Shown: piece by piece, positions 29,498 to 43,150 of the stretch | Layout of the letters: each line of letters opens with the position of its first letter | Position numbering within the stretch: the first letter of the stretch is position 1 | From: an uncultured Oscillospiraceae bacterium | Lineage (GTDB): Bacteria; Bacillota; Clostridia; Oscillospirales; Oscillospiraceae | Direction: 5' to 3' | Assembly: GCA_947624395.1 (NCBI GenBank) | Contig: CANQKA010000008.1 | Coordinates: forward strand, 1 to 45,810 | DNA: 45,810 nucleotides | Translations under genes and position numbers: made by a program | Notes under the pieces: model-generated | What the model saw: only the letters and a program-made list of their open reading frames with translations | What the model was told of the DNA's origin: nothing | Database searches by the model: none

Positions 29498-29528
29498 CGA
29501 AAAAGTCGTGTTTCATTGCGAAAAAGTC
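29498..29528 (+). promoter_or_regulatory. Paired direct repeats upstream of the export-locus promoter
   Basis: CGAAAAAGTC occurs at 29498-29507 and 29519-29528, 21 bases apart (two helical turns), ending 12 bases before the -35 box at 29541. That geometry is typical for a dimeric activator, for example LytTR-type response regulators of bacteriocin loci. No such regulator gene is in the window. Confidence 0.5.
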
Positions 29529-29540
29529 ACTCTCACTGCA

Positions 29541-29569
29541 TTGAGTCATGCCGCCAGATATGCTATAAT
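29541..29569 (+). promoter_or_regulatory. Sigma-A promoter of the export locus
   Basis: TTGAGT (29541-29546), 17 bases, TATAAT (29564-29569). It would give a leader of about 190 bases that includes the second, sigma-specific promoter. Confidence 0.75.
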
Positions 29570-29671
29570 AAGAGGAAATGGCGTCACAATTTGCTGGACC
29601 GAAACGGAGCGCGGTGGTATTATAGAGGACGGCGGCGCGATAGACGGGACATGCGAGAATTTTTGCCGCCC

Positions 29672-29710
29672 TTCGGCCCTTTTGCCGAATCGAAACGTAT
29701 AAAGAGACAG
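29672..29710 (+). promoter_or_regulatory. Candidate alternative-sigma promoter, copy 1
   Basis: Bipartite motif TCGGCCCTTTTG (29673-29684), nine bases, AACGTATAAA (29694-29703), then AGACAG. Seen as an ECF-like promoter it is CGGCCC-N16-CGTATA. The same arrangement with identical spacing recurs at 42434-42472. A CACGGCC/GGCCGTG hairpin (29711-29730) follows at the expected 5' end of the transcript. It lies 56 bases before the first gene of the locus, two genes ahead of which none is closer to the sigma gene. Confidence 0.65.
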
Positions 29711-29765
29711 CACGGCCGTTCAGGGCCGTGAAACAGGACCGGACGGTTCCGGCGGGAGGGATGAG

Positions 29766-29969
29766 ATGGATGCGATCGGCATGGACGCACGGCTGACCGC
29801 GTTGTTCGACCGCCAGAGGAAGGTCAACGACCCCCGGCTGGCGCGGCTCATCGGGCAGACCCAGGCCCGGTGGGGCGCGCCTTTGACGGACGAGGACCTG
29901 ACTTTGGTGGCGGCGGCGGGCGAGCCGGATGTCCCAGCGGGAAAAGAGCCCTGGAAAACGGGCGGATGA
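29766..29969 (+). CDS. 67-residue protein with a leader-like motif near its C-terminus
   Basis: First gene of the export locus, family unknown. GGAGGGATGAG precedes ATG 29766. The product is hydrophilic, starting MDAIGMDARLTALFDRQRKV. At residues 40-52 it has LTDEDLTLVAAAG, which has the same spacing of acidic and hydrophobic residues as the leaders of the three exported precursors (LSDDALDAVSGG, LADEALDGVAGG, LREDELDAVVGG) but ends in AAG rather than GG. The remaining 15 residues (EPDVPAGKEPWKTGG) would be the released part if it were processed. Alternatively it is a small regulator of the sigma factor, whose start codon overlaps its stop (ATGA). Confidence 0.7.
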   Translation: MDAIGMDARLTALFDRQRKVNDPRLARLIGQTQARWGAPLTDEDLTLVAAAGEPDVPAGKEPWKTGG

Positions 29970-30424
29970 TGGACGGGGAGGAACTGTACCGGCGGTACAG
30001 AGACAAGGTCCTGGCCTACATCCGCGCCAGAGTGGCAAACGAACAGGACGCAGAGGACCTTTGCTCCACCGTCTTTATGAAGGCGTGGGCGAACCTGCCG
30101 GACTTTGACGGGCAGAGGTCCTCGGTGTCCACGTGGCTGTTTTCCATCGCCCACAATGCGATTATCGACCTTTACCGCGCACGGCGGCCCACGGCGGAGC
30201 TGGACGAGAGCATCCCGGCCCCGGAGCCTGACATGGAGCTGCAGGCGCTGGCCCAGGCGCTGGAAGCTCTGCCGGAGCGGGAGCGGGACGTGATCGTGCT
30301 GCACTATTACCATGGGCTTACCCTGAAGGAAGTGGCGCTGCACATGCGCCTGGCCTACAGCACGGTGAAGAAGTGCCACGGCCGGACGCTGGAGCAGCTG
30401 CAAAAAATGCTCGCCACGGTCTGA
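29966..30424 (+). CDS. Sigma-70 family (ECF-like) RNA polymerase sigma factor
   Basis: A 152-residue sigma factor with only regions 2 and 4. Region 2 covers about 5-70 (LYRRYRDKVLAYIRARVANE, AEDLCSTVFMKAWANL, STWLFSIAHNAIIDLYRARR), and region 4 covers about 95-150 (LEALPERERDVIVLHYYHGL, KEVALHMRLAYSTVKKCHGR, the last being the -35-reading helix). Start is ATG 29966, overlapping the preceding stop, with a second ATG directly after. No membrane anti-sigma factor gene adjoins it; the RsbW-like kinase at 35876 and the STAS proteins are the candidate controllers. It probably reads the repeated 39-bp motif at 29672 and 42434, but that is inferred. Confidence 0.9.
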   Translation: MMDGEELYRRYRDKVLAYIRARVANEQDAEDLCSTVFMKAWANLPDFDGQRSSVSTWLFSIAHNAIIDLYRARRPTAELDESIPAPEPDMELQALAQALEALPERERDVIVLHYYHGLTLKEVALHMRLAYSTVKKCHGRTLEQLQKMLATV

Positions 30425-30475
30425 CAGCCGTGGCAAGCGTAAACACAAAATCATTTTATTAAGGGAGATATAAAC

Positions 30476-30772
30476 ATGACTATCACGAAAAATCAGAACG
30501 GTTCCCATCTGGACCTGGCCCTGGAAGGCCGGCTGGATACCACCACCGCGCCCCAGTTGGAGGCGGAGCTGAAGCAGAGCGTGGGCGGCGTCACGGAGCT
30601 GGCGCTGGACTTTTCCAAGCTGGAGTACCTGTCCTCGGCTGGCCTGCGCGTGCTGTTGAGCGCCCAGAAGGTCATGAACCGGCAGGGGTCCATGGTGATA
30701 AAAAACGTGAACGAGACCATCATGGAGATCTTTGAGGTCACCGGCTTTGCGGACATCCTGACCGTCGAGTAA
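30476..30772 (+). CDS. STAS-domain anti-sigma factor antagonist (SpoIIAA/RsbV-like)
   Basis: A 98-residue single STAS domain. Anti-anti-sigma proteins bind and trap an anti-sigma kinase unless a conserved Ser is phosphorylated. Visible: LDLALEGRLDTTTAPQLEAE at 13-32, then LALDFSKLEYLSSAGLRVLL, where the Ser of LSSAGLRVL near residue 58 is the expected phosphorylation site. AAGGGAG precedes ATG 30476. It lies directly after the sigma gene. Partners in the locus would be the HATPase kinase at 35876 and the PP2C phosphatase at 34173. Confidence 0.92.
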   Translation: MTITKNQNGSHLDLALEGRLDTTTAPQLEAELKQSVGGVTELALDFSKLEYLSSAGLRVLLSAQKVMNRQGSMVIKNVNETIMEIFEVTGFADILTVE

Positions 30773-30777
30773 ATGCG

Positions 30778-31560
30778 ATGAAGATCGCGTACCTGGGGAT
30801 CGATTTTCTGCATCCGGCGCTGCTTTCCGCGCTGCAGGAGGGCTGCGAGGTGCTGCGGATCTTTACCTGCCGTACCGACAATGTGACGGAGTTCAATACG
30901 GCTGTGCTGCAGACCGCGCAGGACTACAACATCCCCTATACGCTGGACCGCCTCACGGAAAAGGACCTGGACCGGTTGGAACAGGAGGGGTGCGAGCTGC
31001 TGCTGTGCGCCGGATACTATTATCGCGTACCGGTCACGGCCCGCTTTCCCATGGTCAACTTTCATCCTTCGCCGCTGCCCACGGGCCGCGGCGGCTGGCC
31101 CATGCCCATCATCCTGCTGCGTGGCCTTCCCTATGGGGGCGTGACCGCCCATAAAATGGCCAGCCAGTTCGATACGGGCGATATCCTGCTGCGGGAGTCG
31201 TTTCCCATCCGGGAGGGTGAGACGCTGCGCAGTTACATGCAGCAGGTGCATGCGCGGATACCGGCCATGGTGCACCGGCTGGTGCATGAGCTGCCCGCGC
31301 TGTTGGAGCACGCCGTGCCCCAGGGGCCCGGTGATTACTGGCCCATGCCTACGGAGGCGGATTGGACGGTCACGCCGGATATGGACGTGGCCCAGGCCGA
31401 CCGTATCCTGCGCGCCTTTTACGGCTATGAGTGCATTTATCAGACGCCGGAGAAGAGGATAGAGCTGATCGGCGGCAGAGCGTTCAGCGGCGAAAATCAA
31501 GAGCAGCCCTTCCCCGTGGGGGGAGGATATATCCAGGCAGAAAGAGTTCGGGTACTGTAG
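30778..31560 (+). CDS. Formyltransferase-fold protein (Fmt/PurN-like)
   Basis: Enzyme of 260 residues with the N10-formyltetrahydrofolate transferase fold. The catalytic triad is present: Asn94 and His96 in VNFHPSPLPTGRGGWP and Asp132 in QFDTGDILLRE. N-terminal MKIAYLGIDFLHPALLSAL and CELLLCAGYYYRVP fit the Rossmann core. It is shorter than methionyl-tRNA formyltransferase (about 310) and its C-terminal part differs, so the acceptor is probably not initiator tRNA; amino-sugar or peptide formylation are options. It starts five bases after the STAS gene stop with a weak ribosome binding site and is followed two bases later by the DUF2156 gene. Confidence 0.8.
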   Translation: MKIAYLGIDFLHPALLSALQEGCEVLRIFTCRTDNVTEFNTAVLQTAQDYNIPYTLDRLTEKDLDRLEQEGCELLLCAGYYYRVPVTARFPMVNFHPSPLPTGRGGWPMPIILLRGLPYGGVTAHKMASQFDTGDILLRESFPIREGETLRSYMQQVHARIPAMVHRLVHELPALLEHAVPQGPGDYWPMPTEADWTVTPDMDVAQADRILRAFYGYECIYQTPEKRIELIGGRAFSGENQEQPFPVGGGYIQAERVRVL

Positions 31561-31561: not shown

Positions 31562-32428
31562 ATGGAGGAAACCCAGCGCATAACACTGGCCCATAAAGAG
31601 AAGATAGAGGCTCTGCGGCGTGCCGCCGGGCATACGCTGTCTTCCCACACGTTCGCCTCTTTGTATCTTTGGCGGGAGGAGATGGGACTGTCCCTTTGGC
31701 TGACGGAGGACATGTTCGCCGTTCGCTGCGGCTGGAAGGGAAAAAACGCGTGGTTTTTCCCCTGCGGCGAGGCCTCGGCGACGGAGGCGTTCATTCGGCG
31801 CAGGCTTGCCGAGCCGGACTTCTCTCTGTGCTATCTGCGCACATGTGACGCCCAATGGCTGGAAAAGCAGTTTCCGGGGCGGTGGAAGCTCCTGCGCGTA
31901 CCACAGGACGACGAGTATCTCTATGACGTTGCGGGCCATCGCACCCTGATCGGCGGCGCATATGCCAATATGCGCACGCAGGTACATAAGGTGGAGCGCG
32001 AATACCAACACCGGACCGAGTGGGTTTCGGATGATACGCTGGATGACGCGCTGCGGGTGATACGGCAGTGGAGCCACGGAGAGCACCGGTTTGGCGACTG
32101 CACGCTGCGGGACGATCGGGTGGACGAAGAGGCGCTGCTGATGCATCGCGAGCTGGGCATCACGGGTATCGTGCTTTATTTGAACGACGAGCCGGTGGCC
32201 GTCACGGCGGGCTTTGTCCTGGACGGGGATACGTTCGACGTGGCGGTGGCGAAAAGCGTCTCCACGGCCCAGGGCGTTCCCTATTACGCGAAACGGGAGC
32301 TTTTTATGCGCCTGGAACAGCCTGTGGTCAATATGGAGGAGGACCTGGGCATCCCCGGTCTGCGCAGGATGAAAAACGGCATGCACCCCGTGGGAACACA
32401 TGAGATTTGGGAGGCTTTCCAGTTATGA
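31562..32428 (+). CDS. DUF2156 protein (MprF-like aminoacyl-tRNA transferase fold)
   Basis: A 288-residue soluble protein of the DUF2156 group, related to the cytoplasmic domain of phosphatidylglycerol lysyltransferase (double GNAT fold). It shows SSHTFASLYLWREEMGLSLW near the N-terminus, a basic central part MRTQVHKVEREY, GITGIVLYLNDEPVAVTAGF and the family's closing VNMEEDLGIPGLRRMKNGMH. No membrane helices are present, so it is not full MprF. Members are suspected to transfer an aminoacyl group from tRNA to lipid or peptide. Its stop overlaps the next start (ATGA). With the formyltransferase it could modify the exported product or the host's own envelope, both unproven. Confidence 0.82.
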   Translation: MEETQRITLAHKEKIEALRRAAGHTLSSHTFASLYLWREEMGLSLWLTEDMFAVRCGWKGKNAWFFPCGEASATEAFIRRRLAEPDFSLCYLRTCDAQWLEKQFPGRWKLLRVPQDDEYLYDVAGHRTLIGGAYANMRTQVHKVEREYQHRTEWVSDDTLDDALRVIRQWSHGEHRFGDCTLRDDRVDEEALLMHRELGITGIVLYLNDEPVAVTAGFVLDGDTFDVAVAKSVSTAQGVPYYAKRELFMRLEQPVVNMEEDLGIPGLRRMKNGMHPVGTHEIWEAFQL

Positions 32429-34161
32429 ATCAACAAAAAGATCGTTTTACGCCGCGGATGTTCCGCCGGCTGCTGATACCGTCCCTGGCGTCCTCTTTGG
32501 GCCTGGCGTTCGCCGATATGGCCGACGCGGTGGTGGTCGGCCAGCGGATGGGCGCCGTGGGTCTGGCGGCGATCAACCTCAGTTTGCCGCTGTACAGCGT
32601 GCTCAATCTTTTCATGCACGGTCTGGGCCTGGGCGGCAGCGTGCGCTATTCCCAGCTTTTGGGCGAAGGAAAGCACCGGGAGGCGGTGGACTGCTTTAAC
32701 CGCGTCATGCAGGCAGGACTTCTGGTCAGCGTTTTGATCGCCGCCATCGTCAACCTGTTTCCCCGGGCGGTGCTGGGGCTTTTGGGCACCACGCCGGCCG
32801 ACGGCGAATTATATGAGGCCAGCAAAAGTTATCTCTGCGTGATCGCATTGGGCGCGCCGCTTTTCTTTTTGAGTTACATGCTCAATTACTTTTTGTGCAA
32901 CGATAACAACCAACGTTTGGCAAGCGTGGGTTTTTTGCTGGGAAACGCGGCGGACATCGTGCTCAACATCGTATTTGTGCTGGGCATGGGCATGGGCACG
33001 TTCGGCGCCGCCATTGCGACCCTGCTGGGCCTTTCGGCTACCGTGTTCTGCTATCTGCCCGGTCTTTTTTCCAAAAATCATATCCTGCGTCCTGCCGTGA
33101 CGAAGCCGGATGTGCGCCAGACGTTCTCCTGCTTCAAGACCGGCTTGGCCACTTCCTCGCAGCATATTTTCAAGATGTTTTTTTTGCTCATTGCCAACGA
33201 TGTGCTGATGCGTATGGCGGGAGCGGACGGCGTGGCGGTGTTCGACATGGTGCAAAACGCGTCCTATCTTATCCTTTATTTATATGAGGGAACGGCCAAG
33301 GCGGCCCAGCCCCTTGTCAGCACCTTTTACGGCGAGAAGAACGACGTGGCCGCCCGCCATACCCGGTCGCTTGCCCTGCAGTGGGGCGTTATTGCCGGCG
33401 GCACGGCGACGGCGCTCATCTGCCTGTTCCCGGGCTTTATATGCGGCGTGTTCGGCCTGCGCGGCGAGGCGCTCACCGAACTGGGTGCGCTGGCGCTGCG
33501 GCTGTTTGGCCTGAGCGCTACCTTTGCCGGTGTCAGCATCATACTGGAAAGCTATTATCAGTCGGTCAACGAGGAACGAAGCGCGTTCGTGATCGCGTTC
33601 CTGCGGGGCTGCGCGGTGCTCTTGCCATGCACGGTGGCGTTTTCCTTCCTGTCCCTGCGGGGCTTCTGGTGGATGTATCCGGTGACGGAGGCGCTGTCCC
33701 TGACGCTGTTTTTCCTGTGGCGGCGTCTTAAGAAACGGGCCGGCGCGTTCGACCTGGCGCGGGTGTATCATAGCACCATCCGCAACAGCAACGAGGATAT
33801 CTCCGCCCTGACTGGCGGTATCGAAGAATTTTGCGAACGGTGGGAAGCGGCGCCCCAGCAGCAGTATTTCGTCACCATGGCGGTGGAGGAGGTCTGCATG
33901 GCCATCATCACCAACGCCTTTGGCAATATGAAGGACGGGGAGATACAGGTGACGCTGGTGGCGCTGGAAAACAGGGATTTTGAGCTGCACATCCGGGATA
34001 ACGCCGCGTTTTTCGATCCCTTTTCCCTGCATACCGGCCGTCTGGGCGGAAAAGAGCAGGTGGACATGGACGCGATGGGCATGATGGTGATAAAGCAGCA
34101 GGCCAAGGAATTTTTCTACCGACAGTACCAGGGCTTTAATACCCTTGTGGTGCGCATATAA
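32425..34161 (+). CDS. MATE-family transporter fused to a C-terminal HATPase domain
   Basis: Residues 1 to about 445 are a MATE exporter with about twelve membrane helices (MFRRLLIPSLASSLGLAFAD, VGLAAINLSLPLYSVLNLFM, FLSYMLNYFLCNDNNQRLAS). Residues about 458-578 are a cytoplasmic GHKL ATPase domain like anti-sigma kinases: N-box TMAVEEVCMAIITNAF, G1 region LHIRDNAAFFDPF, G2 region MDAMGMMVIKQQ. The glycine of the DxG motif is replaced (DNA), so ATP binding or catalysis may be altered. Start ATG 32425 overlaps the DUF2156 stop. A flux sensor feeding the partner switch, or a transporter gated by STAS binding, are possible roles; neither is shown. Confidence 0.88.
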   Translation: MNQQKDRFTPRMFRRLLIPSLASSLGLAFADMADAVVVGQRMGAVGLAAINLSLPLYSVLNLFMHGLGLGGSVRYSQLLGEGKHREAVDCFNRVMQAGLLVSVLIAAIVNLFPRAVLGLLGTTPADGELYEASKSYLCVIALGAPLFFLSYMLNYFLCNDNNQRLASVGFLLGNAADIVLNIVFVLGMGMGTFGAAIATLLGLSATVFCYLPGLFSKNHILRPAVTKPDVRQTFSCFKTGLATSSQHIFKMFFLLIANDVLMRMAGADGVAVFDMVQNASYLILYLYEGTAKAAQPLVSTFYGEKNDVAARHTRSLALQWGVIAGGTATALICLFPGFICGVFGLRGEALTELGALALRLFGLSATFAGVSIILESYYQSVNEERSAFVIAFLRGCAVLLPCTVAFSFLSLRGFWWMYPVTEALSLTLFFLWRRLKKRAGAFDLARVYHSTIRNSNEDISALTGGIEEFCERWEAAPQQQYFVTMAVEEVCMAIITNAFGNMKDGEIQVTLVALENRDFELHIRDNAAFFDPFSLHTGRLGGKEQVDMDAMGMMVIKQQAKEFFYRQYQGFNTLVVRI

Positions 34162-34172: not shown

Positions 34173-35879
34173 ATGCAGAAAAGACATATATCGCTGAGGA
34201 TAAAGGTGACGTGCCTGGTCCTGGCCGTGGCCGTGGTGATCGCATTTGCCGCGTCGCTGGTGAGCTATAAGGTCTATGCCAGCACCATGGACAGGCAGTA
34301 TGAGACCCAGACCATGAATCTGGCGAAAACAGCCGCCGCCATGCTGGACCGGGATGACATGCAGGCGCTGACACAGGATGTGATGGACCGTTATCACGCC
34401 GTTTGCGGCGAGGACGGTCAGGCGCCGGATTTTGCCAGCTTCACGGATGATGATTGGGACGAGTATTACGCGGCGCTCGCGCCGTCCATGGAGCTGGACA
34501 GCTATCAGCGGCTGTACGCCGTTTTGTCCGAGATCAGGGCGAACAACGCCGCCCAATCCATATATGTCTGCTATATGGACGAGCAGACGGGCAAGGCCGT
34601 CTATATCCTGGACGCGTCGGACCCGGATGACGCCTGCGTGCCCGGAGACTGCGACGATATCGAACAGGGCAACCTGGAGCTGATGGAGCAGGGCGTGTAT
34701 GATTTTCCCGCTTACATCACCAATTATGAGGAATACGGCTGGCTCTGCTCGGCCTCCGCGGGCATCTACGGGGAGGACGGCAAGGTCATCGCCAACGCGT
34801 ACGTGGACATCTCCATGAACGACGTGATGCAGGACCGCCACGACTTTTTGACCCAGCTGCTGCTCATCCTTGTTGGCGCCACGCTGGTGCTCATCGTGCT
34901 GCTGGTGTTCATCAGCACCCGCACGGTGGTACAGCCCATCAACAAGCTGGCGGCAGCGGCGGACGCGTTCGTGTCGGACAAAGAGAAGAGCATTTATGGG
35001 CTGTCCGCCATCGCCCAGCTGCGTATCCACACGGGCGATGAGATCGAAAACCTGGCCAGTTCCATTCAGAAAATGGAGCAGGATATCACCAACTACATCG
35101 ACAACCTGGCCGTTGTGACGGCGGAGAAGGAGCGTATCAGTACGGAGCTGCACGTGGCCACCCAGATCCAGGCCAGCATGCTGCCCTGCATCTTCCCGCC
35201 CTTCCCGGACCGGTCGGAGTTCGACATCTACGCGTCCATGAACCCGGCGAAAGAGGTGGGCGGCGACTTCTACGACTTCTTCATGGTGGACGAGAGCCAC
35301 ATTGCCATCGTGATGGCGGACGTGTCCGGCAAGGGGGTGCCGGCGGCGCTGTTCATGGTGATAGGCAAGACCCTCATCAAGGACCACACCACCCCGGGCC
35401 GGGACCTGGGCGAGGTATTCATGGAGGTCAACAAGCTGCTGTGCGAGGGCAACGGCGAGGAGCTTTTCATCACCGCCTTCGAGGGGGTGCTGGACCTGAA
35501 AACAGGCCAGTTCAACTTTGTCAACGCCGGCCACGAGATGCCGTTCATCCGCCGGCAGGGGCAGTATACGCCGGAGAAGATACGGGCCGGGTTCGTGCTG
35601 GCGGGCATGGATATGACCCGGTACCGGATGGGCACGCTGCAAATGGAGCCGGGGGACGCCATCTTCCAGTACACGGACGGCGTGACCGAGGCGACGAACG
35701 CCAACAATGAGCTGTACGGCATGGAGCGGCTGGAGGCGGTGCTGAATAAGAATTCGACCGCCGCGCCGGACGCGCTGCTTCCGGCGGTGAAGGCGGACAT
35801 CGACGCCTTCGTGGGGGATGCGCCCCAATTCGACGACATCACAATGCTTTGTATGGAATATAAGGAGAAAATGAAATGA
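34173..35879 (+). CDS. Membrane PP2C phosphatase with extracellular sensor and HAMP (RsbU/SpoIIE-like)
   Basis: Dephosphorylates phosphorylated STAS proteins in partner switches. The 568-residue protein has a first membrane helix (VTCLVLAVAVVIAFAASLV at 12-30), an outside sensor of about 195 residues, a second helix (LLLILVGATLVLIVLLVFI near 230-250), HAMP (about 251-305), a helical linker, and a SpoIIE-type PP2C domain (about 345-565) with metal motifs VGGDFYDFF, VMADVSGKGVPAALFM, YTDGVTEAT and FDDITMLCM. AGGAGG precedes ATG 34173. The outside domain could read a signal such as the exported peptide. Its stop overlaps the kinase gene (ATGA). Confidence 0.94.
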   Translation: MQKRHISLRIKVTCLVLAVAVVIAFAASLVSYKVYASTMDRQYETQTMNLAKTAAAMLDRDDMQALTQDVMDRYHAVCGEDGQAPDFASFTDDDWDEYYAALAPSMELDSYQRLYAVLSEIRANNAAQSIYVCYMDEQTGKAVYILDASDPDDACVPGDCDDIEQGNLELMEQGVYDFPAYITNYEEYGWLCSASAGIYGEDGKVIANAYVDISMNDVMQDRHDFLTQLLLILVGATLVLIVLLVFISTRTVVQPINKLAAAADAFVSDKEKSIYGLSAIAQLRIHTGDEIENLASSIQKMEQDITNYIDNLAVVTAEKERISTELHVATQIQASMLPCIFPPFPDRSEFDIYASMNPAKEVGGDFYDFFMVDESHIAIVMADVSGKGVPAALFMVIGKTLIKDHTTPGRDLGEVFMEVNKLLCEGNGEELFITAFEGVLDLKTGQFNFVNAGHEMPFIRRQGQYTPEKIRAGFVLAGMDMTRYRMGTLQMEPGDAIFQYTDGVTEATNANNELYGMERLEAVLNKNSTAAPDALLPAVKADIDAFVGDAPQFDDITMLCMEYKEKMK

Positions 35880-36292
35880 GCGAACGCAACGAGATGACAG
35901 TGGAGGCCACGCTGGAAAACATTCCATCGGTGACGGCGTTTGTGGACGAGCGGCTGGAAGCGCTGGACTGCCCCATGAAGGCCCAGATGCAGATCGACGT
36001 GGCCATCGACGAGCTTTTCAGCAACATCGCCCGGTACGCCTACGACCCGGTCACCGGACCGGCGACGGTGCGGGTGGATGTGGACCAGGAGCCTCTGGCC
36101 GTGCGTATCACGTTCATCGACCACGGCAAGCCCTACGATCCGCTGGCAAAGGCCGACCCGGACGTGACGCTTTCCGCGGAGGACCGCCAGATCGGCGGCC
36201 TGGGCATTTACATGGTGAAAAAATCAATGGACGATGTGCGCTACGAGTATAAAAACGGCCAGAACATCCTGACCGTGGAAAAGCGCCTGTAA
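35876..36292 (+). CDS. RsbW-like anti-sigma serine kinase (HATPase)
   Basis: A 138-residue GHKL-fold kinase. It holds the N-box IDVAIDELFSNIARYAYDP near residue 40-58, G1 box ITFIDHGKPYDPLA near 80-93 with DHG, and G2 box RQIGGLGIYMVKKSMDDVRY near 102-121, all intact. In partner switches it binds the sigma factor or phosphorylates the STAS antagonist. It starts within the phosphatase stop codon, so kinase and phosphatase amounts are linked. It is the best candidate for the inhibitor of the sigma factor at 29966. Confidence 0.93.
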   Translation: MSERNEMTVEATLENIPSVTAFVDERLEALDCPMKAQMQIDVAIDELFSNIARYAYDPVTGPATVRVDVDQEPLAVRITFIDHGKPYDPLAKADPDVTLSAEDRQIGGLGIYMVKKSMDDVRYEYKNGQNILTVEKRL

Positions 36293-36310: not shown

Positions 36311-37492
36311 ATGACTTTGGCGGAAGGAAAACTGGAAAACGGCGTGCTGACGATGTCTCTCGTGGGCCACATCGACTCCGGCAACGCCGCCCAGGCGGAG
36401 CAGGAGCTGAACACGCTGCGCCAGAGCGCCCCGCCGGTGGCGGCCGTGGCGCTGGACTTCGAGCGGCTGCAGTATATATCCAGCGCGGGCCTGCGGGTCA
36501 TCCTGCGGCTGCGCAAGGAGCGGCCGGAACTGAAGATCGTGAACGTGTCCTCCGAGGTATACGAGGTGCTGGACATGACCGGCTTCACGGAGATGCTGCC
36601 GGTGGAGAAGGCATACCGGCGCCTGAGCGTGGACGGCTGCGAGGTCATCGGCCAGGGCGCCAACGGCCAGGTCTATCGCCTGGACCCGGACACCATCATC
36701 AAGGTGTATTTAAACCCCGACAGCCTGCCGGACATCCGCCGGGAGCGGGAGCTGGCCCGCAAGGCCTTTGTGCTGGGCATCCCCACGGCCATCCCCTACG
36801 ACGTGGTGAAGGTGGGGGAGGGCTACGGCTCCGTGTTCGAGCTGTTGAACGCCAGAAGTCTGGCCAAGCTCATCATCGCCGAGCCGGAGAAGCTGGACGA
36901 GTATGTGCATGTCTATGTGGACCTCTTAAAAAAGATACACGCCACCCAGGTGCAGCCGGGGGATATGCCGGACATGAAGGCGGTGGCCCTGGACTGGGCG
37001 GACTTTCTGAAGGACCACCTGCCGCCGGAGCAGTTTGAGAAGCTGCGGGGCCTGATCGAGGCGGTGCCGGAGGACCACCACATGCTCCACGGCGATTACC
37101 ACATCAAAAACGTCATGGTCCAGAACGGCGAGGTACTGCTCATCGATATGGACACATTGTGCATGGGCCATCCCGTGTTCGAGTTCGCGTCCGTATTCCT
37201 GGCCTACCAGGGCTTTGGGGAGCTGGACCACACCGTGACGGATAAATTTTTGGGCGTGGACTACGATACCTGCGCGGCCATTTGGGACAAGACGCTGCGG
37301 CTCTACTTTGGCACGGATGACCAGGCCCAGCTGGACGCCATCGCCGACAAGGCCAGGGTCATCGGGTACACCCGGCTGCTGCGGCGGACCATCCGCCGCC
37401 AGGGCGATACCGCCGAGGGCCAGGCCATCATCGCCAACTGCAAAACACGGCTGGCCGAGCTTCTGGCCCGCGTGGATAAGCTCACGTTCTGA
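36311..37492 (+). CDS. STAS domain fused to an APH-like protein/small-molecule kinase
   Basis: Residues 1 to about 95 are a STAS antagonist (GVLTMSLVGHIDSGNAAQAE, VALDFERLQYISSAGLRVIL with the Ser in ISSAGLRV). Residues about 100-393 are an aminoglycoside-phosphotransferase-like kinase: EVIGQGANGQVYRLDPDTII with the glycine loop and the Lys in IIKVYLNP, the catalytic LHGDYHIKNVMV near 259-270 and the metal Asp in LLIDMDTL near 279. I recall similar kinase domains in Firmicutes without a defined substrate. It could phosphorylate a protein of this locus or a peptide. GGCGGAGAGGGG lies upstream. It is 18 bases after the kinase gene. Confidence 0.9.
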   Translation: MTLAEGKLENGVLTMSLVGHIDSGNAAQAEQELNTLRQSAPPVAAVALDFERLQYISSAGLRVILRLRKERPELKIVNVSSEVYEVLDMTGFTEMLPVEKAYRRLSVDGCEVIGQGANGQVYRLDPDTIIKVYLNPDSLPDIRRERELARKAFVLGIPTAIPYDVVKVGEGYGSVFELLNARSLAKLIIAEPEKLDEYVHVYVDLLKKIHATQVQPGDMPDMKAVALDWADFLKDHLPPEQFEKLRGLIEAVPEDHHMLHGDYHIKNVMVQNGEVLLIDMDTLCMGHPVFEFASVFLAYQGFGELDHTVTDKFLGVDYDTCAAIWDKTLRLYFGTDDQAQLDAIADKARVIGYTRLLRRTIRRQGDTAEGQAIIANCKTRLAELLARVDKLTF

Positions 37493-37531: not shown

Positions 37532-38008
37532 ATGGACAGCGGACTGTTTCGTCAAAAGAGCCTGGATAAGGTGTCGAGTCCGGAGCAGATGAACGACTAC
37601 ATCAAGGTGACAGGACCGGGCGTGTGGCTGGTGCTGGCGGCGGTGATCGCGCTGTTGGCGGGGCTCATCATCTGGGCGGTGCTGGGCCGGTTGGAGACGA
37701 CCGTGACGGCGGCGGCGGTGGCCGGACCGGACGGCGCGGTGGTGTGCTACATAGCGGAGGACGACCTGGACGCGGTGCGGACGGGTCAGACGGTGCATGT
37801 GGACGGACAGGACTACGCCCTGGCCGGCGTGGCGGCGCGGCCGGTGACGGCGGACGAGAGCTTTGACAGCTATGCCCTGCATGTGGCCGGTCTGGAGGCC
37901 GGACAGTGGGTGTACCCGGCCCAATTGGACGGGACGCTGCCCGAGGGCGTGTACGAGGCCCACGTGGTGGTGGACAGCGTGTCCCCCATCTCGTTTTTGC
38001 TGAACTGA
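37532..38008 (+). CDS. NHLM-type export membrane-fusion protein (short HlyD-like)
   Basis: A 158-residue membrane protein that links the exporter to the outside. FRQKSLDKVSSPEQMNDYIK at 6-25 and VTGPGVWLVLAAVIALLAGL (first part of one membrane helix) match the adaptor of NHLM-type bacteriocin exporters. The remainder is a small beta barrel-like part (TVTAAAVAGPDGAVVCYIAE) without the long coiled coil of Gram-negative HlyD proteins, as expected when no outer membrane must be crossed. It sits eight bases before the C39 exporter gene and 40 after the STAS-kinase. Confidence 0.85.
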   Translation: MDSGLFRQKSLDKVSSPEQMNDYIKVTGPGVWLVLAAVIALLAGLIIWAVLGRLETTVTAAAVAGPDGAVVCYIAEDDLDAVRTGQTVHVDGQDYALAGVAARPVTADESFDSYALHVAGLEAGQWVYPAQLDGTLPEGVYEAHVVVDSVSPISFLLN

Positions 38009-38015: not shown

Positions 38016-40190
38016 ATGAGAAAGCAGGAGATCAAGCGGCCCGTCACCAAAGGGGTGGCGAAGGTGCCTGTGGTGATGCAGATGGAGGCGCTGGAGTGCG
38101 GCGCGGCCAGCCTCACCATGGTGCTGGCATATTACGGCAAGTGGGTCCCGCTGGAACAGGTGCGGGCCGACTGCGGCGTGAGCCGGGACGGCTCCAACGC
38201 CAAGAACGTGCTGAAAGCGGCGAAGAGCTACGGCCTGACGGCGAAGGCGTTCCGCCTGGAGCCGGAGGACCTGCGGGAGCGGGGGACGTTTCCCTGCATC
38301 ATCCACTGGAACTTCAACCACTTTGTGGTGCTGGACGGGTTCAAAAATGGCAAGGCCATTTTGAACGACCCGGCCCGGGGCGTCACGCCCGTGAGCATGG
38401 AGAGCTTTGACGAGTCCTTCACGGGCATATGCCTGACGTTCGAGCCGGGAGAGGATTTCCAACCCGGCGGCAGCCCCAAGAGCATGGTGCGCTACGCGAA
38501 AAAGCGCCTGACCGGCGCCGGCGTGGCGCTGGTGTTCGTGGCGCTGACAACGCTTATAGGCGCGCTGTTCGGCGTGATAAGCCCGGCGTTTTCCCGTATC
38601 TTCATGGATAGGCTTCTGACGGGGCAGAACCCGGAGTGGCTGTGGCCGTTCGTGCTTGTGCTGGCGGGCGTGAGCTTTTTGCAGCTTGTGGTGGCGTGGG
38701 TGCAGGCGGTGTGGTCGCTGCGTATCACGGGAAAGCTGGCCAGCGTGGGCGCGGCCACGTTTTTGTGGAAGGTGCTGCACATGCCCATGGAGTTTTTCTC
38801 CCAGCGCATGGCGGGGGATATCCAGCAGCGGCAGGCCACCAACGCGTCTATCGCCCAGGAGCTTGTAAATACGCTGGGGCCGCTGGTGCTGAACGCCATC
38901 ATGATGGTGTTCTACCTGGTGGTCATGCTGCGCTATTCCTGGATACTGACCCTGGTGGGGCTTACGTCGGTCATCGCAAACCTGGCGGTGAGCCGGTATA
39001 TCTCCAAGAAGCGGACGAACATCATGCGCGTGCAGATGCGGGACGCGGGGAAGCTGGCGTCGTCCACCATGGCGGCCATCGAGATGATCGAGACGATCAA
39101 GGCCGCCGGTGCGGAGAACGGGTACTTTGAGCGCTGGGCAGGTTATCAGGCCAGCGTCAATACCCAGCAGATGCGCTTTACAAAATCGGACGCCTATCTG
39201 GGGCTGATACCCACCATCGTGAGCACGGTGAGCGATATGGCCATCCTGTTTCTGGGCGTGCTGTTCGTGATGCAGGGCAGCTTCACCATCGGTATGGTGA
39301 TGGCGTTCCAGGGCTTTCTCATGAGCTTCACGGCGCCGGCGACTACCCTCATCGGCGCGGGGCAGACCATCCAGGAGATGCGCACGGAGATGGAGCGTGT
39401 GGAGGACGTGATGGAGTACCCGGAGGACGGCAACATGACCGAGGGAGAGGACCTGGAAAGCTACGACAAGCTGTCCGGGGCGCTGGAGATGAAGCACGTC
39501 ACCTTCGGCTATTCCCGGCTGGCAGAGCCGCTCATTGAAGATTTTAACCTGAGCCTGAAGCCGGGCAGCCGTGTGGCCTTCGTGGGCGGGTCCGGCTGCG
39601 GCAAATCCACCCTGTCCAAGCTCATATCGGGCCTTTACCAGCCCTGGAGCGGCGAGATATTGTTTGACGGCAAGCCCATCCGGGAGATAGACCGGAGCGT
39701 GTTCACCGGGTCCCTCGCGGTGGTGGACCAGGACGTGATACTCTTTGAGGATACCATTGCCGAGAACATCAAGATGTGGGACCACTCCATCGAGGACTTT
39801 GAGATGATCCTGGCGGCCCGTGACGCGGGGATACACAGCGACATCGTGCAGCGGGAGGGCGGATACAACCACAAGCTGACGGAGGGCGGCCGGGACTTTT
39901 CCGGCGGCCAGCGCCAGCGGATGGAGATCGCCCGTGTGCTGGCCCAGGACCCCACCATCATTATTCTGGACGAGGCCACCAGCGCTCTGGACGCCAAGAC
40001 CGAGTTCGAGGTGGTCAGGTCCATCAAGGACAGAGGCGTGACCTGTATCGTGGTGGCCCACAGGCTCTCTACCATCCGGGACTGCGACGAGATCATCGTG
40101 CTGGACCAGGGCAAGGTGGTGGAGCGGGGGACCCATGACGAGCTATACGCCAAGGGCGGGTACTACACCCGTCTTGTGTCCAATGACTGA
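38016..40190 (+). CDS. Peptidase-containing ABC exporter (C39, NHLM type)
   Basis: Cuts double-glycine leaders and exports the released peptide. The 724-residue protein has an N-terminal C39 peptidase with oxyanion Gln22, catalytic Cys28 (ALECGAASLTMVLAYYG), His102 (FNHFVVLDG) and Asp118 (LNDPARG); then a six-helix ABC membrane domain (about 160-450) and an ATPase domain with Walker A GGSGCGKST near 525, signature SGGQRQRMEIARVL near 629, Walker B IIILDEATSALD near 650 and the H-loop VVAHRLST. All catalytic residues are intact. Its likely substrates are the three GG-leader precursors encoded 2.3 kb downstream. Confidence 0.96.
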   Translation: MRKQEIKRPVTKGVAKVPVVMQMEALECGAASLTMVLAYYGKWVPLEQVRADCGVSRDGSNAKNVLKAAKSYGLTAKAFRLEPEDLRERGTFPCIIHWNFNHFVVLDGFKNGKAILNDPARGVTPVSMESFDESFTGICLTFEPGEDFQPGGSPKSMVRYAKKRLTGAGVALVFVALTTLIGALFGVISPAFSRIFMDRLLTGQNPEWLWPFVLVLAGVSFLQLVVAWVQAVWSLRITGKLASVGAATFLWKVLHMPMEFFSQRMAGDIQQRQATNASIAQELVNTLGPLVLNAIMMVFYLVVMLRYSWILTLVGLTSVIANLAVSRYISKKRTNIMRVQMRDAGKLASSTMAAIEMIETIKAAGAENGYFERWAGYQASVNTQQMRFTKSDAYLGLIPTIVSTVSDMAILFLGVLFVMQGSFTIGMVMAFQGFLMSFTAPATTLIGAGQTIQEMRTEMERVEDVMEYPEDGNMTEGEDLESYDKLSGALEMKHVTFGYSRLAEPLIEDFNLSLKPGSRVAFVGGSGCGKSTLSKLISGLYQPWSGEILFDGKPIREIDRSVFTGSLAVVDQDVILFEDTIAENIKMWDHSIEDFEMILAARDAGIHSDIVQREGGYNHKLTEGGRDFSGGQRQRMEIARVLAQDPTIIILDEATSALDAKTEFEVVRSIKDRGVTCIVVAHRLSTIRDCDEIIVLDQGKVVERGTHDELYAKGGYYTRLVSND

Positions 40191-40204: not shown

Positions 40205-42409
40205 TTGGGTTGGTTTGACGAACAAATAAGAGAGCGCCGGGAGCAGGACCAGCGTGCCTTTGAGGAGAGCTTCGCGTCCATCGCGGGGGCGGTGCTGGGC
40301 CGGCCTGTGGTCACCGAGGACGAGGGCAGACAGGCCAAGAGCGCCATCGAGGAAATACTGAAATATTATCACGCCAAGAGCCGGGAAGTGCCCGATTCGG
40401 TGAAGGACTTCAACGAGCAGCTGGAATTTCTGCTCCGGCCTTACGGCATCATGCGCCGGACGGTGACGCTGGAAAAGGGCTGGTACAAAGACGCCATGGG
40501 CGCCATGCTGGCCCGGCGGAAGTCCGACGGGGCCCTGACGGCCATGATCCCCACGGGGCTGTCCGGCTATACTTATGCCGACGCGGCCACGGGCAAGCGC
40601 CGGCGGGTGAACGCCCGGACGGAAGAGCTTTTCGAGCGGGAGGCCATGGCGTTTTATAAGCCCTTCCCGCAGGGGAAGATCGGCATCCCCGGCATGATGA
40701 AGTACATAGGCTCCTGCACGTCCTGGGCGGACCGCATCCTGTTTGCCCTGTCCGCGCTGGCGGTGAGCCTGGTGGGACTGCTGCTGCCCAGGCTCAATAA
40801 CCTGCTGTTCTCCTATGTGGCGGCCAGCGGGAGCATGGCGGTGCTGGCGGCGCTGGTCAGCTTCATGCTGCTGGTGAGCGTCAGTTCCCAGCTTTTGAAT
40901 ACGGTAAAGCAGCTTCTCACGGTCCGGATGGACACGAAGGTGTCCGTGTCGGTGGAGGCGGCGGGGATGATGCGGCTTTTCTCCCTGCCGGCCAACTTCT
41001 TCAAGCAATACAGCACCGGCGAGATCGCCAGCCGGGTCATGAACATCAAGCAGCTGGCGAGCCTGCTCATATCCTCGGTGGGGGCGATGGGCCTTACGAG
41101 CCTGTTCTCGCTGCTGCAGATCACCCAGATCTTCGCCTACGCCCCGGCGCTGGTGGTGCCGGCGCTGGCCATCGTGGGCGTGACGCTGGCGTTTTCGGTG
41201 GTCACGTCCATACGGCAGAAGAATATCACCCAGCAGCTGATGGAGCAGAGCGCCAAGGAAAACGGTTTTTCCTACGCCCTGATCAGCGGCGTGCAGAAGG
41301 TGAAGCTGTCCGGCGCGGAGAAGCGGGCCTTCGCCAAGTGGAGCGAGCAGTACGCCAAGGTGGCGCGGCTGCAATACGACCCGCCCATGTTTTTGAAGGT
41401 CAACGGCGTGATAAGCCTGGCGATCACCCTCGTCGGCACGCTGGTGATGTACGCCGTGGCGGTGAAAAGCGGCGTGAGCGTGTCGGAATACTACGCCTTC
41501 AACTCCGCCTACGCCATGATAACCGGCGCGTTCACGTCCCTGGCCGGCATCGCGGCCATGGTGGGGCAGATCATCCCCATCCTGAATATGGCCAAGCCCA
41601 TATTGGACGCCCAGCCGGAGATCAGTGCGGACAAACAGATGGTGGACCGTATCAGCGGCGGCATCGAGCTCAACAACGTCTCCTTCCGGTACTCGGAGGA
41701 TATGCCCAATGTGGTGGACAACATGTCCCTCAAGATCCGGCCCGGCCAGTATGTGGCCATCGTGGGCCGGACGGGCTGCGGCAAGTCCACGCTGATGCGG
41801 CTGCTGCTGGGGTTCGAGACGCCCCAGAAGGGGGCTATCTATTACGATGGCCGGGATATGGCCTCCCTGGACCTGAAGAGCCTGCGGCGGCGCATGGGCG
41901 TGGTGATGCAGGACGGGAAGCTCTTCCAGGGGGATATCTACTCCAACATCACCATCTCCGCGCCCTGGCTGACCCTGGACGACGCGTGGGAGGCGGCGGA
42001 AATGGCCGGCGTGGCGGAGGATATCCGGCGCATGCCCATGGGTATGCATACCCTCATCTCCGAGGGAAGCGGCGGCATCTCCGGCGGCCAGCGCCAGCGG
42101 CTGCTCATCGCACGGGCCATCGCGCCCAAGCCCCGCGTGCTCATGTTCGACGAGGCCACCTCGGCCCTGGACAACATCACCCAGCGGGTGGTGTCCGATT
42201 CGCTGGATAAGCTCAAGTGCACCCGTATCGTCATAGCCCACCGGCTCAGCACCATCCGCCACTGCGACCGCATCATCGTCCTGGACGGGGGCCATATCGT
42301 GGAGGACGGGACGTACGAGGAGCTGATCGCCAAAAACGGCTATTTCGCCGAGCTTGTGGCCCGTCAACGGCTGGACACAGAACCGGCCGAGGCCGCGGCA
42401 GGAAATTAA
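40205..42409 (+). CDS. Second NHLM-type ABC exporter (no peptidase)
   Basis: A 734-residue half-transporter that in this system family accompanies the C39 exporter. The first 150 or so residues are a soluble domain of unknown role (WFDEQIRERREQDQRAFEES); six membrane helices follow (about 175-460), then an ATPase domain with Walker A GRTGCGKST near 522, signature SGGQRQRLLIARAI near 627, and LMFDEATSALD. The start is TTG 40205 with GAGGGGGTG upstream; no better ATG exists near. The two ABC proteins may form a heterodimer. Confidence 0.93.
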   Translation: MGWFDEQIRERREQDQRAFEESFASIAGAVLGRPVVTEDEGRQAKSAIEEILKYYHAKSREVPDSVKDFNEQLEFLLRPYGIMRRTVTLEKGWYKDAMGAMLARRKSDGALTAMIPTGLSGYTYADAATGKRRRVNARTEELFEREAMAFYKPFPQGKIGIPGMMKYIGSCTSWADRILFALSALAVSLVGLLLPRLNNLLFSYVAASGSMAVLAALVSFMLLVSVSSQLLNTVKQLLTVRMDTKVSVSVEAAGMMRLFSLPANFFKQYSTGEIASRVMNIKQLASLLISSVGAMGLTSLFSLLQITQIFAYAPALVVPALAIVGVTLAFSVVTSIRQKNITQQLMEQSAKENGFSYALISGVQKVKLSGAEKRAFAKWSEQYAKVARLQYDPPMFLKVNGVISLAITLVGTLVMYAVAVKSGVSVSEYYAFNSAYAMITGAFTSLAGIAAMVGQIIPILNMAKPILDAQPEISADKQMVDRISGGIELNNVSFRYSEDMPNVVDNMSLKIRPGQYVAIVGRTGCGKSTLMRLLLGFETPQKGAIYYDGRDMASLDLKSLRRRMGVVMQDGKLFQGDIYSNITISAPWLTLDDAWEAAEMAGVAEDIRRMPMGMHTLISEGSGGISGGQRQRLLIARAIAPKPRVLMFDEATSALDNITQRVVSDSLDKLKCTRIVIAHRLSTIRHCDRIIVLDGGHIVEDGTYEELIAKNGYFAELVARQRLDTEPAEAAAGN

Positions 42410-42433
42410 GCGGAGAAAAAATTTTTCATTTCC

Positions 42434-42472
42434 CTCGGCCCTTTTGGCCCGCTGGAACGTATAAACAGACAG
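42434..42472 (+). promoter_or_regulatory. Candidate alternative-sigma promoter, copy 2, before the precursor genes
   Basis: TCGGCCCTTTTG (42435-42446), nine bases, AACGTATAAA (42456-42465), AGACAG (42467-42472). By eye 30 of 39 positions agree with 29672-29710, with exactly the same spacing, while the nine-base middle differs. It lies 22 bases ahead of the first precursor start and would let the peptide genes be transcribed more strongly than the operon. Confidence 0.7.
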
Positions 42473-42494
42473 AATGACAAAGGGGGGTATCGCC

Positions 42495-42662
42495 ATGGGC
42501 GAGAAGAAGAGAAACGAAGAGCTGTCGGACGACGCTCTGGACGCCGTGTCCGGCGGCAAGAAGGTCATTTTTCAGGATTGCGTGGTCTGCGGCAGATCCG
42601 CTACCAAACAGGGCCCCGATGGCAAATGGTATTGTCCGGCCCACTATGACGAAAAATTTTGA
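42495..42662 (+). CDS. Double-glycine precursor peptide 1 with CxxC...CxxH core
   Basis: A 55-residue precursor. Leader residues 1-21 end LSDDALDAVSGG, the C39 recognition pattern with cleavage expected after Gly21. The 34-residue core has Cys29-Cys32 (DCVVCGRS) and Cys47-His50 (YCPAHY) separated by 14 residues, and the GPDGKWYC turn. Four such ligands suggest one zinc or iron site in a ribbon or LIM-like fold rather than a lanthionine peptide; Ser and Thr are few. I chose ATG 42495, preceded by GGGGGGT. No family is recognised for the core. It aligns without gaps with peptide 2 at the leader, the ligands and the turn. Confidence 0.88.
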   Translation: MGEKKRNEELSDDALDAVSGGKKVIFQDCVVCGRSATKQGPDGKWYCPAHYDEKF

Positions 42663-42675
42663 ACGGGTGACGAAA

Positions 42676-42852
42676 ATGGATAATAACGAGAACAAAAAAG
42701 CCCTGGCCGACGAGGCCCTGGACGGTGTGGCCGGAGGCAAGTCGTACTGGTTTATCGACTGCACGATCTGCCACGAGCGGTATTACAAAATAGGCCCCGA
42801 CGGCAAGGCCTATTGCGCCAAGCACTATAACGAGAAGTGGCCGAAGAAATGA
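42676..42852 (+). CDS. Double-glycine precursor peptide 2 with CxxC...CxxH core
   Basis: A 58-residue precursor closely matching peptide 1: leader ends LADEALDGVAGG at residue 21, and the core has Cys29-Cys32 (DCTICHER), the turn GPDGKAYC, and Cys47-His50 (YCAKHYNEKW), all at the same positions. The C-terminus adds PKK, making the core more basic. The ATG at 42676 is 13 bases after the previous stop; the ribosome binding site is weak (GGGTGA), so translation may depend on peptide 1. The pair may act together as a two-peptide product, or be a recent duplication. Confidence 0.88.
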   Translation: MDNNENKKALADEALDGVAGGKSYWFIDCTICHERYYKIGPDGKAYCAKHYNEKWPKK

Positions 42853-42888
42853 CGCCGGCCGCCTGACAACCATAAGGAGACAAGGACC

Positions 42889-43098
42889 ATGAGAGAGGCA
42901 AAGAACGCGAGGGAAGTAAAAGCGCTGCGCGAGGACGAGCTGGACGCGGTAGTTGGCGGGGTCCGTATCGATTCCGTGGGACCCTGCGGCCTGTGCTTTC
43001 TGCTGAAGCCGCTGGCGGAGTACCATGACCCGGTGGATACGACGAAGCATAAGTACATCTGCGCCGACTGCGCCCGCGATATCGGATATGTGAGATGA
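42889..43098 (+). CDS. Double-glycine precursor peptide 3 with CxxC...CxxC core
   Basis: A 69-residue precursor. Leader ends LREDELDAVVGG at residue 24; the 45-residue core has Cys33-Cys36 (GPCGLCFLLK) and Cys58-Cys61 (YICADCARD) with 21 residues between, the layout of a small zinc ribbon. It keeps the leader pattern of peptides 1 and 2 but a longer core and four-Cys ligand set. AAGGAG precedes ATG 42889. It is the last gene before the strong terminator at 43114. Confidence 0.87.
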   Translation: MREAKNAREVKALREDELDAVVGGVRIDSVGPCGLCFLLKPLAEYHDPVDTTKHKYICADCARDIGYVR

Positions 43099-43113
43099 CC
43101 GCTCCAAAACGGT

Positions 43114-43150
43114 AAAAAGGGACTGCCATGTTTGCGGCAGTCCCTTTTTA
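43114..43150 (+). terminator. Intrinsic terminator of the export locus
   Basis: Fourteen-pair stem AAAAAGGGACTGCC / GGCAGTCCCTTTTT with an eight-base loop; the right arm ends in a T-tract. It closes the transcript after peptide 3. Confidence 0.92.

Follow-up and report, generated by a model that had tools for sequence, protein, structure and literature searches.

A predicted ECF sigma regulon of Gly-Gly-leader peptides joined to a partner-switch cassette and an NHLM-type exporter in an uncultured Oscillospiraceae bacterium

Results

A predicted ECF-type promoter precedes peptide genes inside and outside the locus

We analyzed a stretch of 45,810 nucleotides (hereafter the window; contig CANQKA010000008.1 of assembly GCA_947624395.1, our contig C8) from an uncultured Oscillospiraceae bacterium whose genome assembly measures 2.06 Mb in 131 contigs and is 82.7% complete. 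The window contains a plus-strand run of 15 genes (29766-43098) for a small protein (OrfA), an extracytoplasmic function (ECF)-type sigma factor, a partner-switch cassette, an NHLM-type exporter with a C39 peptidase, and three peptides with Gly-Gly (GG) leaders (Table 1). Our results indicate that this locus is quite probably a peptide-secretion regulon that amplifies itself and is linked to a partner-switch cassette, and the evidence that carries this conclusion is the distribution of a candidate promoter for the sigma factor.

A preliminary description of the region, made from the letters alone, had listed 15 plus-strand genes with overlaps or short gaps. Family searches recovered all of the parts that it named, with Pfam matches for the switch components, a two-region sigma factor, two fusion proteins and two transferase-fold enzymes; three GG-leader precursors were likewise present downstream of the exporter. 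The conserved first gene, orfA, was absent from that description. Its left limit (29498) lies in non-coding DNA, while its right limit (43150) coincides with a strong intrinsic terminator that closes the run. Intergenic gaps are at most 51 bases as far as the exporter and 85 bases before peptide 1, with its start taken at 42495.

The sigma factor carries region 2 (69.5 bits) and region 4 (48.9 bits) and also matches PF07638 (23.2 bits; cutoff 21.1), and a Pfam search at E <= 0.05 found no region-3 family in it, which is the composition of the ECF (group 4) sigma factors. A second trait of this group, an autoregulatory promoter common to the target genes, was also present, as judged from sequence. 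Intergenic stretches 5' of the cluster genes from 25 orfA-bearing relatives and the window served as the source of motifs. The pattern predicted for the window, CGGCCCTTTTG-N10-ACGTATAAA, is bipartite and resembles the kind used by ECF sigma factors. Exact copies of it stand upstream of orfA-sigma and in the gap before peptide 1, and these two copies compare with 0.01 expected in the window, a figure of purely descriptive value, since these very sites had supplied the pattern. Transcripts would be expected to start 6-10 bases after CGTATAAA, i.e. downstream of 29703 and 42465. The sigma-A-like promoter that lies further upstream is a consensus match, of which the region holds seven, as compared to a mean of 4.6 in shuffled sequence. 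What an earlier proposal took for one shared promoter is thus predicted to be a sigma-A-like and an ECF-type promoter upstream, together with a second ECF-type promoter sitting just before the peptides.

When the 2.06-Mb genome was searched with up to three mismatches allowed, three sites were found, all exact. The third (contig C68) lies outside the window and precedes an unlinked peptide with a Nif11-like GG leader; the reversed pattern, used as a control, gave no forward and one reverse match. Results from the closest relative (G391, the genome of locus L005, with an exporter 94% identical) were similar: nine sites were found at up to three mismatches (control, 0), and all seven with at most two mismatches precede GG-leader peptides, spread over five contigs. 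One G391 site also leads into orfA-sigma, on a different contig from that of the G391 exporter. Across 15 genomes, the window-type motif with up to three mismatches occurred at 18 places; the eight with at most two mismatches (seven in G391, one in G392) all stand before GG peptides, and none of the ten three-mismatch places does. The motif-to-ATG distance was 28-30 bases at five of these eight sites, and it is 29 bases between the second ECF-type promoter and peptide 1 in the window. Because the unlinked peptides were found through the promoter, and not through their neighbourhood, they constitute an independent test of it.

The -10 box of the window (CGTATAA) is shared with a second sigma subclade, whose -35 box differs. 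The strict motif of this subclade, (C/T)TAACA-N15/16-CGTA(T/C)(A/C)A, was found at 13 sites as compared to 0.4 expected (first-order model; loci then examined), a ratio that flatters the motif because the strict form was derived by fitting to these sequences. A search of 14 whole genomes with it gave 12 exact sites (reversed control total, 8); nine were previously known, and of the three new ones two stand before GG peptides whose contig is not that of the exporter. Nine of the 12 were viewed in context, the other three coinciding with known orfA sites. One strict site (L163) falls inside an unrelated gene. Petralouisia muris NM01_1-7b (L024) has orfA-sigma and a variant motif upstream of a peptide gene. 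A loose motif, TAAC-N15-18-CGTA(T/C), was rejected, as it was not enriched over all loci (53 seen vs 119 in block shuffles). The two sigma clades with different -35 boxes share 59% and 75% identity within and 45% between clades in region 4, and 52% and 64% within and 39% between over the whole protein. Altogether, control of GG-leader peptides, linked and unlinked, by the sigma factor is well supported by these predicted sites.

Switch genes are conserved beside the exporter and also occur without it

The relatives analyzed were the best 80 of at least 592 loci around exporter homologues (67-94% identity); among the matches listed, the six closest exporters belong to uncultured Oscillospiraceae or Clostridia metagenome-assembled genomes (MAGs) with 'Lapin' isolate names. 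At least one of the STAS, PP2C and HATPase genes was present in 53 of the 80 loci and all three in 32. For the 33 loci with full flanks (the other 47 enter only the 80-locus counts), the corresponding numbers were 27 and 21, whereas 20 control regions (319 kb), cut from these genomes at set positions instead of being randomly sampled, contained no switch gene. Chance clustering of switch and exporter was therefore rejected (27/33 full-flank loci vs 0/20 control regions), and the check that the preliminary description had set for its circuit, conservation of the switch genes beside the exporter in related genomes, did not refute it. Furthermore, in 36 of the 80 loci the gene immediately preceding HlyD is of switch type, the two being less than 50 bases apart in 30 of these. 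In the 33 loci, the exporter's strand also carries 81 of 87 switch or sigma genes; on account of this adjacency and strand sharing, the coupling of the switch to export looks selected.

The operon holds the full set of partner-switch components: a PP2C phosphatase (SpoIIE domain, 149 bits), a STAS protein with a phosphorylatable Ser and a HATPase with N and G2 boxes. Both Ser residues of the STAS SSAGL motif are kept in 49/49 aligned STAS proteins, and the HATPase motifs (D/E)E...N and GGLG in 34/34 aligned rows; we take these residues to have their customary phosphorylation and catalytic meaning. The C-terminal HATPase_c_2 domain of the MATE fusion scored 36.1 bits (cutoff 27.4). Hydrophobic segments of the phosphatase lie at residues 5-37 and 223-257 and thus leave ~185 residues between them, an outer domain that might sense the peptide, as the preliminary description had suggested; in its predicted model (mean predicted local distance difference test [pLDDT] 77.4, predicted template modelling score [pTM] 0.47) the fold comparison covered residues ~284-568. 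Over Pfam cutoffs, the genome encodes three SpoIIE, three HATPase_c_2 and four STAS proteins, of which one, two and two, respectively, are in the operon. A sporulation switch was rejected, since the genome has a separate STAS-HATPase pair on contig C49 and an 827-residue SpoIIE-type frame on C42.

Two readings of the switch were weighed. In the first, it would work as a classical partner switch: the HATPase inhibits sigma, the phosphatase dephosphorylates STAS, and STAS captures the HATPase, freeing sigma for peptide expression. We regard this as a serious possibility while leaning slightly against it. The catalytic and phosphorylation motifs are intact, and some gene orders agree with it: sigma is followed directly by a HATPase in L030 and L034, the order is PP2C-HATPase-orfA-sigma in L167, and it is orfA-sigma-STAS-MATE in L165 and L175. 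In addition, eight of nine orfA-sigma genomes without a local switch gene, several of whose loci end at contig ends, have a PP2C of the same family elsewhere (E 1e-115 or better); in G397 it lies ~4 kb past the examined locus (L020), whose contig and strand it shares. The PP2C family (E <= 1e-100) is also commoner in genomes with the exporter (13/22 vs 44/369; Fisher p 6.6e-7, uncorrected for kinship). However, SigB and SigF, the targets of the RsbU-RsbV-RsbW and SpoIIE-SpoIIAA-SpoIIAB switches, carry regions 2, 3 and 4, and the adjacent sigma factor lacks region 3, so that an RsbW-SigB switch is not claimed. Moreover, 14 of 23 full-flank loci with PP2C have no sigma gene, cassettes of exporter-less genomes show none nearby, and three genomes (G399, with L038; G067; G139) have orfA-sigma and no PP2C at E <= 1e-30, the orfA genes of G067 and G139 being divergent and recognised by eye.

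In the second reading, the switch is an independent module acting on non-transcriptional outputs (MATE-HATPase, STAS-APH, GH3 or the formyltransferase/LPG-type enzymes) that is merely co-transcribed here, which we judge to have a little less than an even chance. Twelve PP2C neighbourhoods were taken, ten from exporter-less genomes and two (L192, L193) from genomes with an exporter, and none of them contained a sigma or orfA match. PP2C, HATPase and STAS occurred together in eight of the ten exporter-less neighbourhoods (L189, L190 and L195-L200; not L191 or L194), including L190 with GH3, L195-L197, L199 and L200 with STAS-APH, and L198 with the three switch genes. L189, from the window's own family, reads STAS-formyltransferase-LPG-MATE-MATE/HATPase-PP2C/HATPase, with MATE in two frames, and has no sigma match in 16 kb. 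In total, 44 of 57 PP2C-bearing genomes lack an NHLM exporter at E <= 1e-240. The cassettes of exporter-less genomes mean that the switch has an independent existence, and the MATE-HATPase and STAS-APH fusions are its likely outputs. The adjacency to HlyD and the shared strand described above argue against mere co-transcription. The earlier suggestion that the circuit decides when the peptides are made is supported by the promoter sites for the step from sigma to peptides; control of this sigma by an RsbW-type kinase, given a sigma factor lacking region 3 and cassettes lacking sigma, is no more than a possibility.

Several variations of the cassette were seen. A GH3-family acyl-amido synthetase replaces the formyltransferase- and LPG-type enzymes in L005, L014, L190, L192 and L193, which hints that the MATE transporter handles a small-molecule conjugate. 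The exporter-less loci L196, L197 and L200 have single open reading frames (ORFs) that match STAS, APH and HATPase profiles, beside PP2C and another STAS gene.

OrfA resembles an export leader and accompanies the sigma factor

The orfA gene adjoins sigma in 26/26 relatives of the first set and in 11 of 12 further genomes, where orfA lies outside the examined exporter locus (37/38 altogether). Departures in placement were that orfA follows sigma in L077, that the examined stretch ends within sigma in L020, and that L172 has no sigma match. Among the 80 loci, 22 orfA-bearing relatives have sigma downstream of the exporter; in the distant NHLM loci L085, L086, L089, L090, L096, L098 and L110, a sigma match lies upstream of the HlyD gene, not downstream. 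Two 18-bit orfA matches (L088, L089) were dropped, the one in L089 not adjoining sigma. Strong OrfA matches (E 1e-19 or better) were found in 5 of 391 genomes of the class, all among the 22 that bear the exporter and all at the exporter locus (hypergeometric p ~4e-7 with the window's own genome and 6e-6 without it). This number leaves out three weak matches (E 8e-5 to 1e-3): one in G067, 1.7 kb before the exporter, and two within 747- and 798-residue frames.

No credible family model was found for OrfA (best E 0.06 in NCBIfam and 0.042 in Pfam, one member each), and it has no hydrophobic segment. In the alignment of 27 sequences, L, D, L and AAG are invariant. Against 18 aligned GG leaders, OrfA could be matched over just 14 columns, which make up the box itself (hhalign P 2.5e-5, probability 75%). 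The C39 protease domain of LahT is sensitive to residues -12, -7 and -4 of its substrates, and the last 13 leader residues suffice for recognition (PMC6363468, leader and motif passages). Hydrophobic residues at these same positions, in register with Ala-Ala at -2/-1, were present in 24 of 40 OrfA sequences (L171, a near copy of L170, was omitted); 13 others are one residue shorter, two have a true Gly-Gly and one has neither. A leader profile separated 17 of the 27 OrfA sequences from shuffles (at most 3 of 2,700 shuffles scored as high) and did not separate the other ten, mostly from the shorter group. In distant orfA-like ORFs recognised by eye (L096, L098), the N-terminal FDFQRF block is lost and the box kept. 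The predicted model (mean pLDDT 70.1, pTM 0.38) consists of three helices, of which the last spans the box, and its tail is disordered.

On this evidence, we read OrfA as a docking-competent leader mimic that regulates sigma. OrfA is most likely the sigma factor's own regulator, for which we infer the direction of control, and its box is probably uncleavable by the exporter; OrfA may in this way report free exporter capacity. One specific form of this idea, which we put forward tentatively and consider rather unlikely as a whole, is that OrfA is a soluble anti-sigma factor with a decoy leader box that docks uncut on free C39 domains and matches peptide synthesis to export. Free exporters would hold OrfA on the C39 domain and leave sigma active; once precursors filled the exporters, OrfA would be displaced and sigma shut off.

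A further explanation, which appears improbable, is that OrfA is a signal-peptide precursor that the exporter cuts after AAG, its 13-20-residue tail then being sensed by the outer domain of the phosphatase in a quorum loop. The leader-like box, the disordered tail, an outer domain on the phosphatase and OrfA tails that vary between clades and are alike within some would fit such a role, as would the true GG of two rows among the 40 (L076, L176). Against it stand the replacement of Gly-Gly by Ala-Ala in register in most rows, an N-terminal half (LFDFQRF..N.RL) that is conserved and does not resemble the Nif11-like leaders, and the three genomes named above that have orfA-sigma and no PP2C at E <= 1e-30.

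The homologues with Gly-Gly instead of Ala-Ala-Gly lie at 9569-9778 of L076 and 1393-1683 of L176; they are possible intermediates between precursor and regulator.

A model for the peptide-secretion circuit

We hypothesize that the sigma-A-like promoter gives basal expression of orfA-sigma, and that the sigma factor would then recognize its pattern before its own operon and before GG-leader peptide genes, one of them unlinked. The output would be more sigma, the switch cassette and exporter (on the same strand, with no gap over 51 bases) and the peptides; the sites are seen in the DNA, whereas binding and transcription are postulated. The NHLM C39 exporter would cleave the peptides after Gly-Gly and secrete them, as expected of its family. 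OrfA, made together with sigma and bearing an exporter-docking box without Gly-Gly, is most likely the regulator of sigma and may report free exporter capacity, a step that we hold less firmly. Finally, the PP2C/STAS/HATPase switch would provide an environmental input that is used elsewhere too and could act on sigma, on the MATE-HATPase, on the STAS-kinase or on more than one of them.

A number of results weigh against this model. The promoter is predicted from sequence throughout, and in G391 the pattern was found neither before the exporter nor before the switch. Sites with at most two mismatches were missing from 13 of the 15 genomes, which makes the window-type pattern clade-specific. Since the differences between the two sigma clades extend along the entire protein, the change of -35 box need not stem from region 4. 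No orfA was found anywhere in 38 of 50 genomes (MAGs, completeness unstated) whose examined exporter locus lacks it, and exporters thus occur without the orfA-sigma pair too. The sigma profile, which is generic, matched 3 of the 20 control regions. Across the class, 26 exporter loci were considered, one of which scored slightly under the TIGR cutoff; only 12 of them had a sigma match and 7 any switch gene, numbers that may be low because the profiles were trained on the 80 loci.

Exporter, peptides and flanking features

The preliminary description had called the NHLM exporter complete. Both ABC subunits exceeded their TIGR cutoffs (subunit 1, 952 bits vs 853.3 for TIGR03796), but the HlyD-like protein is short (158 residues) and covers 51 of 421 positions of TIGR03794 at 37 bits, far below the cutoff of 156.2; lengths of ~157 residues are usual in the loci examined. 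The C39 domain of subunit 1 (PF03412, 118.6 bits) may be active, with Cys28, His97/His102 and Asp118, presumably its catalytic triad, visible.

Peptides 1-3 matched no Nif11/NHLP family (0 in NCBIfam, 0 in Pfam), and the leaders of the relatives' peptides are Nif11-like by eye only. The cores (42495-43098) are zinc-ribbon-like, CxxC...CxxH/C, with similar cores in peptides of G391 and G392; that of peptide 3 resembles the YHDP...CADCARDIGYV core of a G391 peptide (L147). No known modification enzyme was found among the 15 operon genes, and a radical SAM enzyme adjoins orfA-sigma in some relatives. A three-mismatch promoter site in G391 (L152; C12:30754), near the exporter cluster, lies 27 bases before an isopentenyl-diphosphate isomerase-like gene (by eye) and reflects chance or an additional regulon member.

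Just 5' of the operon (28135-29403) is a tRNA m1G methyltransferase fused to a GNAT acetyltransferase domain. Directly 3' of it (43298-45808) lies an open-ended ORF that begins like a signal peptide and contains EPEVTAEP repeats together with seven Beta_helix_3 stretches. Rfam and tRNA scans of the window gave no matches.

Table 1. Features of the operon and its predicted control sites
Feature	Position	Strand	Basis or remark
Sigma-A-like promoter TTGAGT-17-TATAAT, extended -10	29541..29569	+	10/12 consensus matches; presumed basal expression
ECF-type promoter CGGCCCTTTTG-N10-ACGTATAAA of orfA-sigma (putative autoregulation)	29674..29703	+	Exact
orfA, 67 residues, leader-recognition box LTDEDLTLVAAAG; overlaps sigma start	29766..29969	+	27-row alignment
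ECF-type sigma factor (regions 2 and 4)	29969..30424	+	PF04542, PF04545, PF08281
STAS protein (RsbV/SpoIIAA type), SSAGL	30476..30772	+	PF01740
Formyltransferase-fold enzyme (formyltransferase-N)	30778..31560	+	PF00551
LPG_synthase_C/GNAT-like aminoacyltransferase	31562..32428	+	PF09924
MATE transporter fused to HATPase_c_2	32425..34161	+	PF01554 and PF13581
Membrane sensor phosphatase: two hydrophobic segments, outer domain, HAMP-like, PP2C	34173..35879	+	
RsbW-type kinase (HATPase_c_2)	35876..36292	+	PF13581
STAS-APH kinase fusion	36311..37492	+	PF01740, PF01636; TIGR02172 111 bits, below cutoff 228
Short HlyD-like accessory protein	37532..38008	+	TIGR03794 N-terminus only; one hydrophobic segment
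NHLM exporter subunit 1 (C39 peptidase-permease-ATPase)	38016..40190	+	TIGR03796, PF03412
NHLM exporter subunit 2	40205..42409	+	TIGR03797, 724 bits (cutoff 709.4)
Second ECF-type promoter, gap before peptide 1	42436..42465	+	Identical to the promoter pattern of orfA
GG-leader peptide 1, CxxC...CxxH core	42495..42662	+	Sequence; start chosen by eye from ribosome-site context
GG-leader peptide 2, CxxC...CxxH core	42676..42852	+	Sequence; start codon by eye
GG-leader peptide 3, CxxC...CxxC core	42889..43098	+	Sequence
Intrinsic terminator of the operon	43113..43150	+	Folds at -27.1 kcal/mol, z = -6.5; not listed by a simple terminator scan

Discussion

Gut Clostridia export many GG-leader peptides whose role and induction are, to our knowledge, not known. 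With the promoter motif described here, the peptides of one response can be predicted, even those encoded at a distance from any exporter, and the sigma factor would offer a handle for turning them on together. A very small protein that mimics the export tag of the peptides accompanies this sigma factor and may tie peptide production to export. If OrfA senses exporter occupancy, this would explain how producers avoid a build-up of uncut peptides, and should the decoy form of this idea be true, peptide synthesis would be matched to export capacity genome-wide, in a C39-exporter counterpart of FlgM. Furthermore, the MATE-HATPase and STAS-kinase fusions of exporter-less cassettes point to partner switches that have transporters and kinases as direct targets.

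Several known systems resemble parts of this locus. PP2C, STAS and HATPase with intact motifs are shared with RsbU/RsbV/RsbW-SigB and SpoIIE/SpoIIAA/SpoIIAB-SigF; unlike those switches, the locus has an ECF-type sigma, MATE-HATPase and STAS-APH fusions, and a cassette that also occurs with no sigma nearby. The SiaA phosphatase of Pseudomonas (NF038263; 6k4e) is likewise a membrane sensor PP2C, although the window phosphatase scores 57 bits against a cutoff of 700 for NF038263 and has different partners; the SiaA system controls a diguanylate cyclase, is not known to act on a sigma factor and is a precedent for a switch without sigma output. In FlgM-FliA, a small sigma partner is tied to the flagellar export checkpoint, much as proposed for OrfA, the exporter here being of the C39 type and the likeness drawn being one of proposed role. 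The UviA/TcdR-type sigma factors of clostridial bacteriocins and toxins are also dedicated to secreted proteins, a likeness drawn from their description only, and we know of no partner switch or NHLM exporter in those systems. The NHLM families themselves presumably stem from the work on NHLM/Nif11 export systems.

Microbisporicin of actinobacteria is under the control of the ECF sigma/anti-sigma pair MibX/MibW and, in the passages concerned, shares with our locus a cluster-located ECF sigma factor, feed-forward control and an exported ribosomal peptide; it differs from our locus, where the partner is a 67-residue protein with a leader-like box and no hydrophobic segment, peptides also lie outside the cluster, and an NHLM exporter and partner-switch genes are present (PMC4973701). 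The NHLM/Nif11 systems and LahT of Lachnospiraceae C6A11 likewise have several precursors with GG leaders (PMC2887384, PMC6363468). The words STAS and sigma do not occur in the main text of the former (Haft 2010, PMC2887384), and the leader and motif passages on LahT describe no sigma, switch or OrfA (PMC6363468). Among the open-licence papers listed, none dealt with sigma or switch control of NHLM/Nif11 systems. Altogether, the pieces of this locus are of known kinds; within the literature searched, novelty lies in the way they are combined, in the dispersed sigma regulon and in the leader-mimic partner.

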